From positions 1 to 49,936 of the forward strand of contig CANGJU010000008.1 in the NCBI GenBank assembly GCA_947453935.1: a DNA stretch of 49,936 bases, given 5' to 3'. Below, piece by piece: positions 15,232-29,497 of the stretch (position 1 is its first letter; every line of letters begins with the position of its first letter). The stretch is from Bacteroidota bacterium (lineage in GTDB: Bacteria; Bacteroidota; Bacteroidia; AKYH767-A; OLB10). Below the pieces are notes generated by a model, which had not been told where the DNA came from, did not search any database, and saw only the letters and a list, made by a program, of their open reading frames with translations. A program made the position numbers and the translations under genes.

Positions 15232-15337
15232 GCAATTATCCAGAAAGGTGGAGGGACTGAGCCCTATGATACCTTGGCAACCCTTGAAAGAGAAGGTGCC
15301 AATTCCTGATTCAATTCATTTGAAAAAAGATAACTGC
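15232..15337 (+). ncRNA. SAM-I (S-box) riboswitch controlling metH
   Basis: The core reads gaaaggtggagggactgag, then ccc and a variable stretch, then ggcaaccc. The second half reads aaggtgccaattcctg. These match the conserved S-box core (GGAGGGACTGxxCCC...GGCAACC...GGTGCCAATTCC). P1 is formed by gcaattatc (15232-15240) and gataactgc (15329-15337) with one mismatch. It senses S-adenosylmethionine. High SAM should stabilise P1 and allow the downstream terminator, shutting off methionine synthase. Confidence 0.93.
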
Positions 15338-15402: not shown

Positions 15403-15413
15403 TATAACCATTG

Positions 15414-18400
15414 ATGAAAATGAGTAAGAGTATAGAAAGTGATTTAAAACAACGTATTCTCGTTATTGACGGGGCTATGGGTACAATGATTCAGCGCTAT
15501 AAGCTAGAAGAGGCTGATTACCGAGGCGAGCGATTTGCTAATTGGGCAAGTGATGTTAAGGGCAATAATGAATTGCTGAACTTAACGCGTCCTGATATCA
15601 TCAAAGCAATCCATTTAGATTATTTGAATGCAGGTGCGGATATTATTGAAACTAATACTTTTTCGGCACAGGTAATATCTATGGCCGATTATAACATGGA
15701 AGCTCTTTCTTATGAGTTAAATGTGGAAGCTGCAAAATTAGCAAGACAAGCAGTTGATGAATATTATGCAGCTAACGGTAATGAATATACGAAGTATGTT
15801 GCTGGTGCTATTGGTCCAACTAATCGTACGGCCTCTATTTCGCCGGATGTGAATGATCCAGGCTATCGCGCCGTAACTTTTGATATATTGGTTAATGCTT
15901 ATGCAGAGCAAGTAAAAGGGTTGATAGAAGGTGGTGTTGATTTATTATTGATTGAAACAATATTTGATACGCTGAACGCGAAGGCTGCATTATATGCTAT
16001 TCAACTGGTGCAAGAAGAAAAAGGTGTTGAGTTACCAGTTATGATTTCAGGAACTATCACTGATGCTAGTGGAAGAACTTTAAGCGGACAAACAGTGGAA
16101 GCATTTTTAACTTCGCTTTCTCATGTAAACTTGTTAAGTATCGGATTAAATTGTGCATTGGGTGCAAAAGAAATGCGTCCTTATCTAAAAGAACTTTCTG
16201 ATAAAGCACCATTCTTTATTTCTGCTTATCCTAATGCAGGGCTACCCAATCAGTTTGGTGGCTACGATGAAACGCCGCATGCAATGGGACATCAGATCAT
16301 TGATTTTCTAAACAGCGGATTCTTAAATATAGTTGGTGGATGCTGTGGTACTACTCCAGATCATATTGCTGAAATTGCGCGTATAGCCTCAACCGTTAAG
16401 CCTCGTGTGCGTCCTGAGCGTGACCATTTATTACACCTTAGCGGACTAGAAGCAGTGACGTTGCGACCTGAAAGTAATTTCATGAATGTAGGGGAGCGTA
16501 CAAACGTTACCGGTAGTCGTAAGTTTGCTCGTCTTATTGCTGAAGAAAATTATGAAGAAGCATTATCCATTGCCCGCGATCAGGTAGAAGGAGGAGCGCA
16601 AGCAATTGATGTAAACATGGATGAAGGGATGCTCGATTCTGAAAAGGCAATGGTGAAATTCTTAAATCTGATTGCTGCCGAGCCCGATATTTCAAAGCTT
16701 CCAATTATGATTGACTCTTCGAAGTTTCATGTTATAGAAGCAGGATTGAAATGTGTGCAAGGGAAGAGTATCGTTAATTCCATTTCATTAAAAGAAGGAG
16801 AAGAAATTTTTATTGCGCAAGCAAAAACTATTTTGCGTTATGGCGCTGCCGTTATAGTAATGGCCTTTGATGAAGTGGGTCAGGCAGATTCATTACAACG
16901 CAGAATTGAAATTTGTGAACGAGCGTACCGTATTTTGGTAGATAAAGTAAAATTTCCTCCTCAGGATATCATCTTTGATCCGAATATTTTTCCTGTTGCA
17001 ACAGGAATGGAAGAACATCGTCGTAATGCACTCGATTTTTTCGAAGCTACTGCATGGATAAAAGAGAATTTGCCTTATTCAAAGGTGAGTGGAGGAGTAA
17101 GTAATGTTTCGTTTTCTTTTAGAGGGAATGATCATGTTCGTGAAGCTATTCATGCTGCGTTCTTGTTTCATGCCATCAAACATGGAATGGACATGGGAAT
17201 TGTAAATCCTGGACAATTGCAGGTGTATGACGATATTGATAAAGAACTTTTATTGCGAGTAGAAGATGTGTTATTTGATAGAACAGATGATGCCACTGAA
17301 AACTTAATCAATTATGCTGAGCAAATTAAAGGGGCTGGTAAAAAGGTAGAACGAGAAGTCCTTTGGCGAAACGAAAGTTTAGTAGAGCGAATTAAATATT
17401 CGCTCGTGAAAGGTGTTGTTGATTTTATTGATGCTGATATGGAAGAGGCTCGATTGAAGTATGATAAAGCCTTGCATATTATTGAAGGTCCATTAATGGA
17501 CGGGATGAATGTAGTAGGTGATTTATTCGGCGAAGGAAAAATGTTTTTACCCCAAGTAGTGAAGAGCGCACGTGTGATGAAAAAAGCAGTAGCGTATTTG
17601 TTGCCTTATTTAGAAGCAGAAAAAACGAGTGCAAGTTCAAAGGCAGGAAAAATTTTAATGGCTACTGTGAAAGGGGATGTGCATGATATTGGGAAAAATA
17701 TTGTAGGGGTTGTTATGGCTTGTAATAATTATGATGTGGTTGATATTGGTGTGATGGTTCCGTGTGATAAGATATTAGCAGCAGCTATCGAACATAATGT
17801 TGATGCAATTGGGTTAAGCGGATTAATTACTCCTTCACTCGATGAAATGGTGCATGTAGCAAAAGAGATGGAACGTACAGGAATGAAAATACCATTAATG
17901 ATTGGAGGTGCTACAACATCGAAAGTGCATACTGCTGTTAAAATTGCGCCGCATTACAGTGGACCTGTCGTGCATGTGAATGATGCTTCGCGAAGTGTTC
18001 CTGTATTAGGATCACTTTTATCAAACGATTTAAGAGAAAATTTTATGAAAGGTGTTTCTGATGATTATTCAAGAATCAGAACACAGCATGAAAATGCAAA
18101 TAATCAAAACAAGTTTATTTCGTTACAAGAAGCGCAACAAAACAAAGTCAAGATTGATTGGGAAAAGCAAGTTGTTGTAGCTCCGAAAAAATTAGGAACA
18201 CAGATTTTAGAAAATTATCCGTTGGATAAATTAGTTCCTTATATCGACTGGACACCATTCTTCCATAGCTGGGAGATGAGGGGCTCTTATCCAAAAATTT
18301 TAGAGGATAAAGAAAAAGGTGTTGAAGCAAAAAAATTATTTGATGATGCGCAAGCAATGCTTGATAAAATTATCAATGAAAAATGGTTGCAGGCAAATGC

Positions 18401-19082
18401 GGTGATTGGATTGTTTCCTGCAAATGCTATTGGAGATGATATCGAAGTCTATACAGATGAAAACAGAAATGAACTACTGACTAAATTTCATACGTTACGA
18501 CAGCAGACATTAAAACCAGAAGGTCATCCGAATATTGCATTGAGCGATTATGTTGCTCCAAAGTCTTCTAGTGTGAATGATTATGTAGGCGCATTCGCAC
18601 TTACTGCAGGACAAGGAATTGATAGCAAAGTAGAGGAGTTTGAAAAAAATCATGATGACTACAGCGCAATTATGCTGAAAGCATTGGCAGATCGATTAGC
18701 AGAGGCCTTTGCAGAACATTTACATGAGCGTGTGAGAAAAGAATATTGGGGTTATGCGAGCGAAGAACAGTTTTCTAATCAGGAATTGATACAAGAACAC
18801 TATAAAGGTATCCGACCAGCACCTGGTTATCCTGCTCAACCTGATCATACAGAAAAAAATCAGTTGTTTGAATTATTAAAAGCATCGGATGCAACTGGTA
18901 TTACATTAACAGAAAGTTTAGCGATGTTGCCAACGGCCAGTGTTTGTGGATTGTATATCGGAAATGAAAATGCGCAGTACTTTGGACTAGGGAAAATTAA
19001 TAAAGAGCAGGTGGAGGACTATGCCAAGCGAAAAGGGATGGATACGGAAGTAGTGGCGAAATGGCTTGCTCCAGTATTATAA
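15414..19082 (+). CDS. metH: Cobalamin-dependent methionine synthase (full-length)
   Basis: About 1222 residues, the full multidomain enzyme that transfers a methyl group from methyltetrahydrofolate via cobalamin to homocysteine. Domains in order: homocysteine-binding barrel ([11 protein letters not shown] at the start; zinc cysteines in [10 protein letters not shown] near residue 308 plus an upstream Cys in IGLNCALG); pterin-binding barrel ([14 protein letters not shown] ... [13 protein letters not shown]); cobalamin cap and B12 domain with DVHDIG (His about 756, the axial ligand); and the C-terminal SAM-dependent reactivation domain with [14 protein letters not shown]. The track start is TTG 15411; ATG 15414 or ATG 15420 is more likely. 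It is preceded by a SAM-I riboswitch and terminator, so expression falls when SAM is high. Confidence 0.97.
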
Positions 19083-25537: not shown

Positions 25538-25569
25538 AAAGGGGGGCATAAAAACTCCCCTTTATTTTT
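25538..25569 (+). terminator. Intrinsic terminator after msrA
   Basis: Stem aaaggggg / tcccctt(t) (8 bp including a G-U pair) with a 10-base loop and a T-rich flank. It reaches the stop codon of the convergent lhgO gene. Confidence 0.78.
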
Positions 25570-26789
25570 TAATTAATCTTGAAATGCTGTTTAGCCATTT
25601 CTGTAACCGCACTTCCTATTGCTAAACAGGCCGTTGCTGCTGGTGATGGCGCATTTAAAACATGCAATGCATTATCGCTATGCACAATTTTAAAATCGTC
25701 TATCATTTGACCCGTAGAATCCAATGCCATTGCACGTACACCTGCTCTTCCAGGAACAATATCTTCCATCTTTAATTCAGGAATCAAGCGTTGTAGTCTT
25801 TGCAGGAATAATCGTTTGCTAAATGCTCTGCGGTATTCATCTAATCCGAATTGCCAATGCTTGAAAAATAATTTCCAAGTGCCACCATAACTTAGTGCAT
25901 CAACTGTATCTGCTAAATTGAAATCTGTTTTACCATATCCTTCACGCTTAAAAACAAACACTGCATTAGGACCACATTCTGTTGGGTGGTTAATCATACG
26001 CGTGAAATGCACGCCTAAAAATGGGAACTGCGGATTAGGTACAGGATAAATCAAATGCTTTACTTTATGTTTTGCTTCTTCCGTTAATTCATAATAATCA
26101 CCTCTAAAGCCAACAATTTTCATATCCAGATCAACACCATCTTTTTTAGCAATACGATCAGTTTGTAGTCCTGTGCAATTAACAATATAATCTGATGTAA
26201 AATTGCCTTTCGGAGTAACAACCGTTGTTTTACCATCTGCTTTTATAAAGGCGGTTACTTCATGTTCGAGCGCCACCTTGCTTCCAGGAAATTTCTGTTC
26301 GATTAAATCAGCAAGCACTTTACAAACTCCAACAAAATCTATTATGCCAGTACATCCAACACGAATTCCTTCAATGCCCGCACAATAGGGTTCAATTTCT
26401 TTGATTTTATCTGCTGAAATCAACTCAATGTCTTCAACACCATTTTGCAATCCGTGATTAAACACTTTGTGCATATGAGGTAATTCAGACGGGTCGGTTG
26501 CAACAATTAGCTTCCCACAAATGTCGTGGGCAATGTTATGTTCTTTTGCAAATGCAACAAGCTCTCTTCTACCATCGACACAATTTTTTGCTTTGTAACT
26601 TCCCGGCTTGTAGTAAATACCTGAGTGAATTACTCCTGAGTTTCTTCCCGTTTGATGATAAGCGACGGCGTTCTCTTTTTCAAGAACTAATATTTTCAAA
26701 TCAGGTCGGTGCAGATTTAACTTGTAGGCTGTCGATAATCCAACAATTCCTCCTCCGATAACAATAATGTCGAAGTGCTTATTTTCCAT
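25569..26789 (-). CDS. lhgO: L-2-hydroxyglutarate oxidase
   Basis: 406-residue FAD-dependent oxidoreductase of the DAO fold. The N-terminal dinucleotide-binding motif is IIVIGGGIVGLSTAYKL (glycines 12-17), followed by QTGRNSGVIHSGIYY, which is typical of LhgO. GVHFTRMI and PGRAGVRAMA near the C-terminus also fit. The enzyme oxidises L-2-hydroxyglutarate to 2-oxoglutarate at the membrane and returns carbon to the TCA cycle. It is a single gene on the minus strand, with a TAnnTTTG element only 4 bases before the ATG. Length is normal. Confidence 0.92.
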   Translation of the reverse strand: MENKHFDIIVIGGGIVGLSTAYKLNLHRPDLKILVLEKENAVAYHQTGRNSGVIHSGIYYKPGSYKAKNCVDGRRELVAFAKEHNIAHDICGKLIVATDPSELPHMHKVFNHGLQNGVEDIELISADKIKEIEPYCAGIEGIRVGCTGIIDFVGVCKVLADLIEQKFPGSKVALEHEVTAFIKADGKTTVVTPKGNFTSDYIVNCTGLQTDRIAKKDGVDLDMKIVGFRGDYYELTEEAKHKVKHLIYPVPNPQFPFLGVHFTRMINHPTECGPNAVFVFKREGYGKTDFNLADTVDALSYGGTWKLFFKHWQFGLDEYRRAFSKRLFLQRLQRLIPELKMEDIVPGRAGVRAMALDSTGQMIDDFKIVHSDNALHVLNAPSPAATACLAIGSAVTEMAKQHFKIN

Positions 26790-26801: not shown

Positions 26802-26940
26802 ATACGTACAACTTTAACTTCCGAAGTGAAAACCATTTTATTATCTCTGCGTAAAACCACACCTCTGTGTTAATAAATAGCTACCGAACTAATTATTTAA
26901 TACTAAATGAGACGTAAATTTGTTTATTCTATTGTCTTTT

Positions 26941-28161
26941 ATGCGACTACTTAGCCGACTTGTCTTACTTTTATTTTTTCCTGTGGTTTCGTTTGCAGGT
27001 ATTGCGGATAATCCACTTTTAGGAATAAAATCATCTGCAATGGGTGGTACAATTACAAGTATTGGTTTCGATGGAAGTGCTGCTTTTTATAATCCTGCAA
27101 CTATGACTTTTTTGAAAAAGAATTATTTAAACCTCGGTTTAAATTATAACTCCCCGAAAACACTATTTTTAATGAACACAGGTGAAAAATATTATTCATC
27201 AAAATCGGGTTTATTACCAATTAGCTTGTATGGAGTTTATAAATTTACTGATAAAGTGGATTTAGGACTCGCTATAAATAATCCCTTCCAAAATAATATT
27301 TCATGGGATAAGAATTGGGCAGGTAAATACATCTGTATTTCTAATAAAACAAATGTTCAGAATATTCAACCTGCAATTTCATATCGTGTGAATAATAAAT
27401 TTTCTGTTGGAGGAGGATTGATGTTTGCTTTTTACCATCATCAGGTTTCAAGAGCGCTGAATTATGAAAACGCCAGCGGAGATGTAATCATGAATTACGA
27501 ATTAAAAGGTACAGCATTAGGATTAAATCTCGGATTAAACTATAATGATAAAAAATGGCATTTCGGTTTTGCTTTACGCAGTGGACTAAACTATAAAAAT
27601 GCAAAAGGAGAAGCAACACTCGAAAATGCCCCTTCCTCGTTATTGGCTAATGGTGTATTGCCATCTTCAAATTCTGAGGTAACAGCAAATATTAAATTAC
27701 CGTCTGTTGTTTCATTAGGCGCAGCTTATGAGCTCGACCAAAACTGGTTAGTTACAATGGATATGAATATTTACAATTGGGCTAATATAGATTCATTAGA
27801 AATTAAAGTTTCAAATTACCAACAATATAATTTTAGTATTAACCAAGACTTGGCGGGATCTTATGCCATTAGATTTGGAGCACGTTACAATTACTCAAAA
27901 AAACTGATTTTGCGAGGAGGATTTGCATTTGATTTAGCTCCCGTATTAAACACTTATGTTCATCCCGCTTATCCAGAATACAATAAATTCATTTATACCT
28001 GTGGTGCATCATATCATCTGAAAAAATCATTTTCAGTAGACGCATTCGTAGGTTATTCAGACATTAAAGAACGAAAAGAAACAAAAAACATTAATAATTT
28101 TAACGGAACCTATAAGGCTAACGCATTTATTGGTGGTATCGGATTGAACTATGAATTTTAA
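26941..28161 (+). CDS. OmpP1/FadL-family outer membrane transport protein
   Basis: From ATG 26941 the protein has 406 residues. The track uses TTG 26920, but the signal peptide MRLLSRLVLLLFFPVVSFAG begins at 26941. The family motif is near the N-terminus: AMGGTITSIGFDGSAAFYNPATMTFL, where NPA is the hallmark of FadL proteins. The remainder is a beta-barrel pattern with alternating aromatic residues and ends in the aromatic C-terminus NYEF. It would admit long-chain fatty acids or other hydrophobic molecules across the outer membrane. Its last 11 bases overlap the downstream lipoprotein gene, so the two are probably co-translated. Confidence 0.9.
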   Translation: MRLLSRLVLLLFFPVVSFAGIADNPLLGIKSSAMGGTITSIGFDGSAAFYNPATMTFLKKNYLNLGLNYNSPKTLFLMNTGEKYYSSKSGLLPISLYGVYKFTDKVDLGLAINNPFQNNISWDKNWAGKYICISNKTNVQNIQPAISYRVNNKFSVGGGLMFAFYHHQVSRALNYENASGDVIMNYELKGTALGLNLGLNYNDKKWHFGFALRSGLNYKNAKGEATLENAPSSLLANGVLPSSNSEVTANIKLPSVVSLGAAYELDQNWLVTMDMNIYNWANIDSLEIKVSNYQQYNFSINQDLAGSYAIRFGARYNYSKKLILRGGFAFDLAPVLNTYVHPAYPEYNKFIYTCGASYHLKKSFSVDAFVGYSDIKERKETKNINNFNGTYKANAFIGGIGLNYEF

Positions 28162-29497
28162 TTGGAAAATAATAGCAGTCGCATTAATCACTTCGATTGT
28201 ATCTTGCAAGCCTGATTTAAATGAGCCCAGATACACGAGTGGTCAGGCTGATTTTTCTCGATTTGTTTCAATTGGAGATGATTTTGGTGCAGGTGTTTCC
28301 GATGGGGCTTTAACCCGCAACGGGCAGCTATCAGCAGTACCTTATTTATTAGCAACCAAGTTTCAATTAGCAGATGGTGGAGATTTCACGCAGGCTTTAA
28401 TGCAGGATGGTAATGGAGCAGGGTATAATTTTATCAGTAATTCTTTAACAGGCTCAATTTATTTATCGTCTTATACTAATTGTCAGAATAAGACATCATT
28501 AAAAATTCTAAATAATACATTTGATAATAGAAGTTTTGATTGGTTAGGTGCTAATCATTATAATAATTATTGTATTCCAGGATTGAAATCGTTTCAAACA
28601 TATAGTCAGTTCACTGGCAAATCCTATCCTGCTGGAAATTTGTTTTATCATCGTATGGCTTCTGATACAGGTGTTTCAGGATTGTCATCTACGGTGCTTG
28701 GTGATGCTCAATATTTGAATCCCACTTTTGTAATGGTTTGGATTGGCGCATCAGACGTTTACAACTATGCGTTTTCTGGAGGTATAGGCGAGGTAGGAGG
28801 TTTAACCCCGTTCGATATAACTCCTGTGGATACTTTCGAAGCTGCCATCAGTTATATATTTAATGGGTTAATAGGTAGTGGCCAAAAAGGAATAGTAGTT
28901 AATATACCCGATTTGCAAGACATTCCTTACTTTAATTCTTTGCCCTATAATGGGTTGAAATTAACTGCTCAACAGGCAAGTGATTTAAATGCTATTTCTC
29001 CTCCAGGAATTAGTTTTTCAGAGGGTAATAACGCATTAGTAATAACTGAGCCAACAGGAGGAATCATACGACAAATAAAGCGAGGGGAGTATATTTTGAA
29101 TGTCATTAATGCTGATTCGATTACCTGTGGTGGCTGGGGAACGCCTCAAAAACCAATTCCTGCTAATTATGTATTAGATAGTTTAGAAGTAAGTAAAATT
29201 GATAATCGTATAGCTATTTTTAATTCTGATTTGAGAACAGCTGCTAACAGTAAGGGTTTTGCATTCTTCGATTACAATCGTTTTATGGCTAATTTGAAAA
29301 ATGGTTATTCATTTAGCGGGGTATCTGCAACGTCAAATATGTTTTATGGCGGAGCGGTGTCGTTAGATGGATATCATCTCACACCAAGAGGTTGCGCTAT
29401 GGTTGCTAATGAATGTATTAAGTCAATAAATGCTAAGTATAAAAGCAATCTTCCATTGATTAATACAGTCGATTATAGTGGCGTCTTGTTCCCATAA
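28151..29497 (+). CDS. SGNH-hydrolase-like lipoprotein with altered catalytic blocks
   Basis: 448 residues with a lipoprotein signal (ALITSIVSC, Cys19). The architecture follows the Bacteroidota SGNH/GDSL lipoproteins that accompany FadL genes: block I FSRFVSIGDDFGAGVSDGAL, block III VWIGASDVYNYAFSGG, central NIPDLQDIPYFNSLPYN, block V LDGYHLTPRGCAMVANE. In active relatives block I has Ser (IGNSL/IGDSL) and block III has Asn (GNND). Here they read GDD and GASD, while the block V Asp and His remain. This suggests a binding protein or pseudoenzyme, not an esterase. It overlaps the FadL gene by 11 bases and probably works with it at the outer membrane. Confidence 0.82.
   Translation: MNFNWKIIAVALITSIVSCKPDLNEPRYTSGQADFSRFVSIGDDFGAGVSDGALTRNGQLSAVPYLLATKFQLADGGDFTQALMQDGNGAGYNFISNSLTGSIYLSSYTNCQNKTSLKILNNTFDNRSFDWLGANHYNNYCIPGLKSFQTYSQFTGKSYPAGNLFYHRMASDTGVSGLSSTVLGDAQYLNPTFVMVWIGASDVYNYAFSGGIGEVGGLTPFDITPVDTFEAAISYIFNGLIGSGQKGIVVNIPDLQDIPYFNSLPYNGLKLTAQQASDLNAISPPGISFSEGNNALVITEPTGGIIRQIKRGEYILNVINADSITCGGWGTPQKPIPANYVLDSLEVSKIDNRIAIFNSDLRTAANSKGFAFFDYNRFMANLKNGYSFSGVSATSNMFYGGAVSLDGYHLTPRGCAMVANECIKSINAKYKSNLPLINTVDYSGVLFP

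Follow-up and report, generated by a model that had tools for sequence, protein, structure and literature searches.

A FadL-linked lipoprotein of the SGNH family without catalytic Ser and oxyanion Asn is a candidate non-catalytic partner of its outer membrane channel

The 49,936-nucleotide stretch of DNA analyzed here (the window), which is the entire contig of an uncultured Bacteroidota genome of 80% completeness, encodes a FadL-type outer membrane channel followed by an overlapping gene for a lipoprotein of the SGNH hydrolase family that has lost both its catalytic Ser and its oxyanion Asn. The reading that we favor, with a probability of roughly 0.55, is that the two products form a channel and surface lipoprotein pair in which a former esterase has been kept as a non-catalytic lid or binding partner of FadL. 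The pair bears on how FadL-type channels at the Bacteroidota surface receive insoluble substrates, and no paper pairing FadL with an SGNH lipoprotein was found in the open-access literature.

The FadL-lipoprotein gene pair

The features of the pair, with their coordinates in the window and the evidence used to place them, are the following.

26941..28161, forward strand: gene for a FadL/TodX-type outer membrane channel of 406 aa when read from the likely ATG, the TTG ORF beginning at 26920 (Pfam Toluene_X)
26998..27015, forward strand: N-terminal tip of the predicted mature FadL, GIADNP for the common GGFQxN (linked-FadL alignment)
28151..29497, forward strand: SGNH-family lipoprotein gene without catalytic Ser and oxyanion Asn (ORF, Pfam, alignment)
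28205..28225, forward strand: lipobox Cys19 and KPDLNE with two acidic residues, resembling the Bacteroidota lipoprotein surface-export signal (sequence)
28280..28282, forward strand: Asp44 codon, catalytic Ser column of block I (alignment)
28571..28582, forward strand: block II, Cys141 (a Gly in intact members) through Gly144, the oxyanion Gly column (alignment)
28751..28753, forward strand: Ser201 codon, oxyanion Asn column of block III (alignment)
29366..29377, forward strand: block V Asp406-Gly-Tyr-His409, kept (alignment)

The lipoprotein gene starts with an ATG, encodes 448 aa and shares exactly 11 bases (28151-28161) with the FadL-like ORF, an overlap that an earlier note on this DNA had reported. 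The gene upstream of fadL (25569-26789) lies in the opposite orientation, and fadL and the lipoprotein gene therefore look like a short operon starting with fadL. Translation of fadL probably begins at the ATG at 26941 rather than at the TTG at 26920, since relatives start there and one of them has a stop inside the TTG extension. Elsewhere in the window, a SAM riboswitch (RF00162, 83.2 bits) was identified at 15233-15336 of the forward strand, ahead of a large ORF (15411-19082).

The lipoprotein matches the Pfam model Lipase_GDSL (PF00657) at 7e-6 and 26.8 bits, above the curated cut-off of 23.6, and the same model is matched by all 14 members of set A1 at E ≤ 0.01. Besides this family membership, it shares with SGNH/GDSL hydrolases the block order I-II-III-V and the residues Gly144, Asp406 and His409, but it departs from them in its length of about 448 aa with long insertions, in being a lipoprotein encoded in a FadL operon and in lacking the catalytic Ser and the oxyanion Asn. 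The lipobox reads IVSC, and CKPxLDEP is the family consensus after its Cys. Surface exposure of Bacteroidota lipoproteins was judged by the presence of at least two acidic residues just after the lipobox Cys; the six residues following Cys19 (KPDLNE) contain two, and the lipoprotein is accordingly predicted to reside at the cell surface.

Catalytic-site residues of the lipoprotein

At the five catalytic-site columns the window lipoprotein reads D-G-S-D-H, as opposed to the textbook S-G-N-D-H. In an alignment of 95 homologues, Asp44 (block I, IGDDFGAG) occupies the Ser column and Ser201 (block III, WIGASDVY) the oxyanion Asn column, in agreement with the earlier note, which had read GDDF in place of GDS or GNS and GASD in place of GNND. 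The oxyanion Gly144 of block II (NYCIPGLKS) is present, and so are Asp406 and His409 of block V (SLDGYHLT), the DGYH pair that had been described as retained. Although residue assignment rests on sequence alignment, the columns are sure, because the homologues are nearly gap-free at the catalytic blocks and 29 of the 95 carry the textbook S-G-N-D-H (motifs GNSL or GDS, GNND-like, and DGVH). Only the window clade has Cys141 (28571-28573), which is close to the oxyanion Gly; nearly all other members have Gly at this position.

Asp44 and Ser201 are invariant in the five species of the window clade (the window and four close species), so that the Ser-to-Asp and Asn-to-Ser changes, whose fixation had been raised as a question, are fixed in a clade. 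Within it, the lipoprotein has pairwise dN/dS values of 0.05-0.15 and FadL has values of 0.08-0.30; lipoprotein dS is 1.2-2.1 in nine of the ten species pairs. With such ratios, and with dS above 1 in most pairs, the lipoprotein is functional and under strong purifying selection, not decaying; chance, sequencing error and pseudogene decay were ruled out by the dN/dS values together with the presence of D44 and S201 in five species. In the sequence comparison within the window clade, no substitute Ser is conserved near block I: residues 31 to 101 contain no invariant Ser, and two relatives have Ala in place of Ser40. A nearby alternative Ser acting as nucleophile was ruled out on these grounds.

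In the SGNH lipase of S. rimosus, replacement of Ser, Asn or His by Ala abolished activity each time (PMC10779480), which makes ester hydrolysis by the SGNH mechanism very unlikely in a protein with the sequence found here. The protein might still be a hydrolase with a rebuilt site, in which either Asp44 or Ser201, the latter with His409, would serve as nucleophile, but we regard this as distinctly improbable. Asp is the nucleophile of haloalkane dehalogenases, which have another fold, and Asp406 and His409 are kept across the window clade. Moreover, pNP esters are substrates of a fungal GDSL-like lipase that lacks the usual Asn and His, although that enzyme still has its Ser nucleophile (PMC11372007). 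Ser201 already occurs in relatives that keep Ser44 (L012, L013, L074, L084) and thus did not arise as a replacement nucleophile. The blocks are also widely altered, with 15-18 of 43 conserved block positions changed in the window clade versus 2-5 in intact proteins of this family, and relative L006 has lost the oxyanion Gly too, with Ser in place. Clade-specific changes were not significantly enriched in the active-site blocks (9/43 versus 10/103, p 0.10).

Recurrent loss of the catalytic residues

Among the 23 family members, just 3 retain the complete set of five catalytic-site residues. On a careful 30-row tree, built without the catalytic columns, the Ser column changes at least four times: in L015 (to Asp), in L016 and L017 (to Gly), in L022, L023 and L027 (to Gly), and in the window clade (to Asp). 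On a quick tree of all 95 rows the minimum numbers of changes, which like all such tree counts give no direction, are 11 for Ser, 11 for Asn and 8 for His. Since the SGNH superfamily as a rule has S, N and H, losses are the natural reading of these changes. The lipoprotein is still selected after its catalytic residues have been lost, an indication that the FadL-linked lipoprotein has a further, non-catalytic task, and the automatic label 'GDSL lipase' is mechanistically wrong for many of these proteins. In two separate clades (L022, L023, L027, L083, L093), a Gly in the Ser column is accompanied by Tyr in the His column, in what looks like compensating packing of the pocket.

A precedent comparable in kind is the C-terminal SGNH-type domain of Oskar, whose catalytic residues are disrupted and which is probably inactive (PMC2848206). 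Unlike the window protein, however, Oskar is an animal germ-plasm protein with no lipoprotein or channel context.

Conservation of the gene pair

The genomes compared are mostly metagenome assemblies. Both genes were found in 23 of 24 genomes of the same family and are adjacent in all 23, with FadL identity falling to 26-40% across the adjacent family pairs; the 11-base overlap recurs in L012, L013 and L021. The next gene in the window, sucA, neighbors the pair in just 15 of the 23 family genomes, and the link to FadL therefore outlasts general gene order. The joint absence of FadL and the SGNH lipoprotein from genome G017 was discarded as evidence of coupling, because sucA is missing there too.

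Across the class, a homologue was detected in 67 of 198 sampled genomes, and a FadL gene lies directly upstream of about 52 of the 95 homologues examined. The pairing of an SGNH lipoprotein with FadL, which the earlier note had proposed to compare across other Bacteroidota by alignment, thus holds for all 23 family genomes that carry both genes and for roughly half of the homologues examined in the class. Relatives with intact S-G-N-D-H occupy the same FadL operon in the class. A search of viral contigs returned no relatives of the lipoprotein.

These data bear on the alternative that the lipoprotein acts independently of FadL, as a pseudo-esterase that binds glycans or lipids alone, the two genes being operon partners merely by descent. 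The existence in class relatives of a large clade of broken SGNH proteins without an adjoining FadL gene speaks in its favor, but it is quite unlikely given the 23/23 adjacency, maintained while FadL identity drops to its lowest values and other neighbors are lost, and given that both genes accelerated jointly on one branch.

Joint change of both partners

For the window clade, the stem branch measures 0.81 in the lipoprotein and 1.45 in FadL, versus 0.23 and 0.28, respectively, for the sister clade (G003 and G004). For control genes of the same genomes, the corresponding values for the window and sister clades are 0.52 and 0.33 (BamG) and 0.15 and 0.14 (sucA). Both partners are thus accelerated on one stem branch, and the controls much less so. 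The replacement of the FadL tip GGFQxN by GI[AGN]DNP falls on this same accelerated branch, the sister clade keeping GGFQ in the linked-FadL alignment, and from the acceleration and the tip swap it follows that the two proteins were remodeled in concert. The high-affinity site and transport activity of E. coli FadL depend on its first three residues, of which Phe3 is part of the ligand pocket wall (PMC7728783). Family-wide, the association of broken SGNH with a lost FadL tip yields a raw Fisher p of 0.003 that is not tree-corrected, and a tree-aware test of the same association, with too few independent pairs, was not significant; a family-wide link of broken catalysis with tip loss is therefore suggestive only.

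The FadL partner and comparison with known systems

The window FadL matches Pfam Toluene_X at 1.4e-47 and 162.6 bits (cut-off 29.7). It resembles FadL/TodX channels (PF03349) in its barrel family, in the NPA plug motif, which is kept, and in its normal N-terminal length, and differs from them in the loss of the GFQ tip, replaced by GI[AGN]DNP, and in having a predicted surface lipoprotein partner. The genome carries two acyl-CoA dehydrogenase genes, which makes fatty-acid use by the source organism possible.

A FadL-fold barrel with a surface lipoprotein is also found in the Bacteroidota BamG-BamH pair, and the window pair could by analogy be a structural or assembly module without a ligand, similar to BamG-BamH or to BamG2-BamH2 of B. 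thetaiotaomicron. BamG, of FadL fold, binds the surface lipoprotein BamH, and BamG2-BamH2 is a putative operon (PMC12578637). The window FadL also shows weak similarity to the BamG model. At 58.8 bits, however, this similarity is far below the NCBIfam BamG equivalog cut-off of 250, and the genome has a separate, true BamG above that cut-off (365 bits, contig C9). The N-terminal tail of the window FadL lacks the BamG lengthening, being as long as in other operon-linked FadLs and shorter than that of the BamG encoded elsewhere in the genome. The nearest solved chains are transport channels, the P. aeruginosa FadL-type 3dwo and TodX, with no BamG chain among them, and the lipoprotein is unrelated in sequence to the chains of the solved-structure set and matches no BAM subunit in it; the PDB set searched includes Bacteroidota BamG chains, and BamH was assumed to be in the same entries. 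The scores, the separate BamG, the tail and the PDB matches rule out identity with BamG and BamH, and a BAM-like structural or assembly module is an unlikely account of the pair.

SusCD shares with the window pair the gene order, with the gene for an outer membrane channel preceding that for a surface lipoprotein, and the proposed logic of capture, but the window pair consists of a FadL-type barrel and an SGNH-family lipoprotein instead of SusC and SusD.

Proposed function of the pair

Under the favored reading of a channel with a non-catalytic lid or binding partner, the ancestor was most likely a surface esterase feeding FadL, as family membership and gene order indicate: an active SGNH enzyme beside the channel would have freed acyl chains for it, given that the operon of class relatives still encodes the textbook enzyme. 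The Ser-to-Asp and Asn-to-Ser changes of the window clade would have ended ester hydrolysis by the SGNH mechanism, and the lipoprotein would have been retained as a lid or binding protein that offers a pocket but no catalysis. At the cell surface, this cap may use the former active-site pocket to take up a hydrophobic ligand and hand it to FadL, or it may gate FadL, whose N-terminal ligand-site tip would have been rebuilt on the same branch as the lipoprotein. The retention of Asp406 and His409, for which a pure scaffold would have no use, counts against this reading. The earlier note had suggested a pseudoenzyme that serves FadL as a surface lipid-binding or gating partner. The loss of Ser and Asn, its fixation in a clade and the old, strict coupling of the gene to that of FadL support this suggestion in part; inactivity of the protein is probable, and its surface location, contact with FadL, ligand binding and gating we infer.

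More tentatively, many Bacteroidota may combine a FadL channel with a dedicated lid of SGNH descent in a two-part uptake system distinct from SusCD and BAM, in which the lid has become a pseudo-esterase independently in several lineages, accompanied in the window clade by corresponding changes to the ligand site of FadL. A conserved operon that exists in intact and repeatedly inactivated versions provides a natural experiment for separating the hydrolytic role from that of channel partner.

Relatives outside the FadL operon

The large broken SGNH clade of the class relatives (L050, L057, L062-L064, L067-L069, L071-L073 and others) is characterized by the motifs GG[DN]F, GMED and DGYHPN; its members are mostly unlinked to FadL and often lie near an Mrp/NUBPL-type ATPase gene. 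Columns 44, 201 and 409 meet in the active site of the SGNH fold, and Asp or Asn44, Glu201 and His409 co-occur in most members of this orphan clade, where the acidic residues and the His could form a metal site. Reuse of the site as a metal pocket, formed by residue 44 and His409 with Glu201 in the orphan clade, is highly improbable as an explanation of the window protein: the window clade has Ser201, which leaves only Asp44 and His409 of the three, and several other broken members lack the His.

Intact SGNH lipoproteins are also found directly behind TonB-dependent receptor genes (L094:2472, L097, L098, L108), suggesting partner exchange between outer membrane channels; because intact members follow these receptors as well, the lipoprotein family pairs with outer membrane channels more generally.
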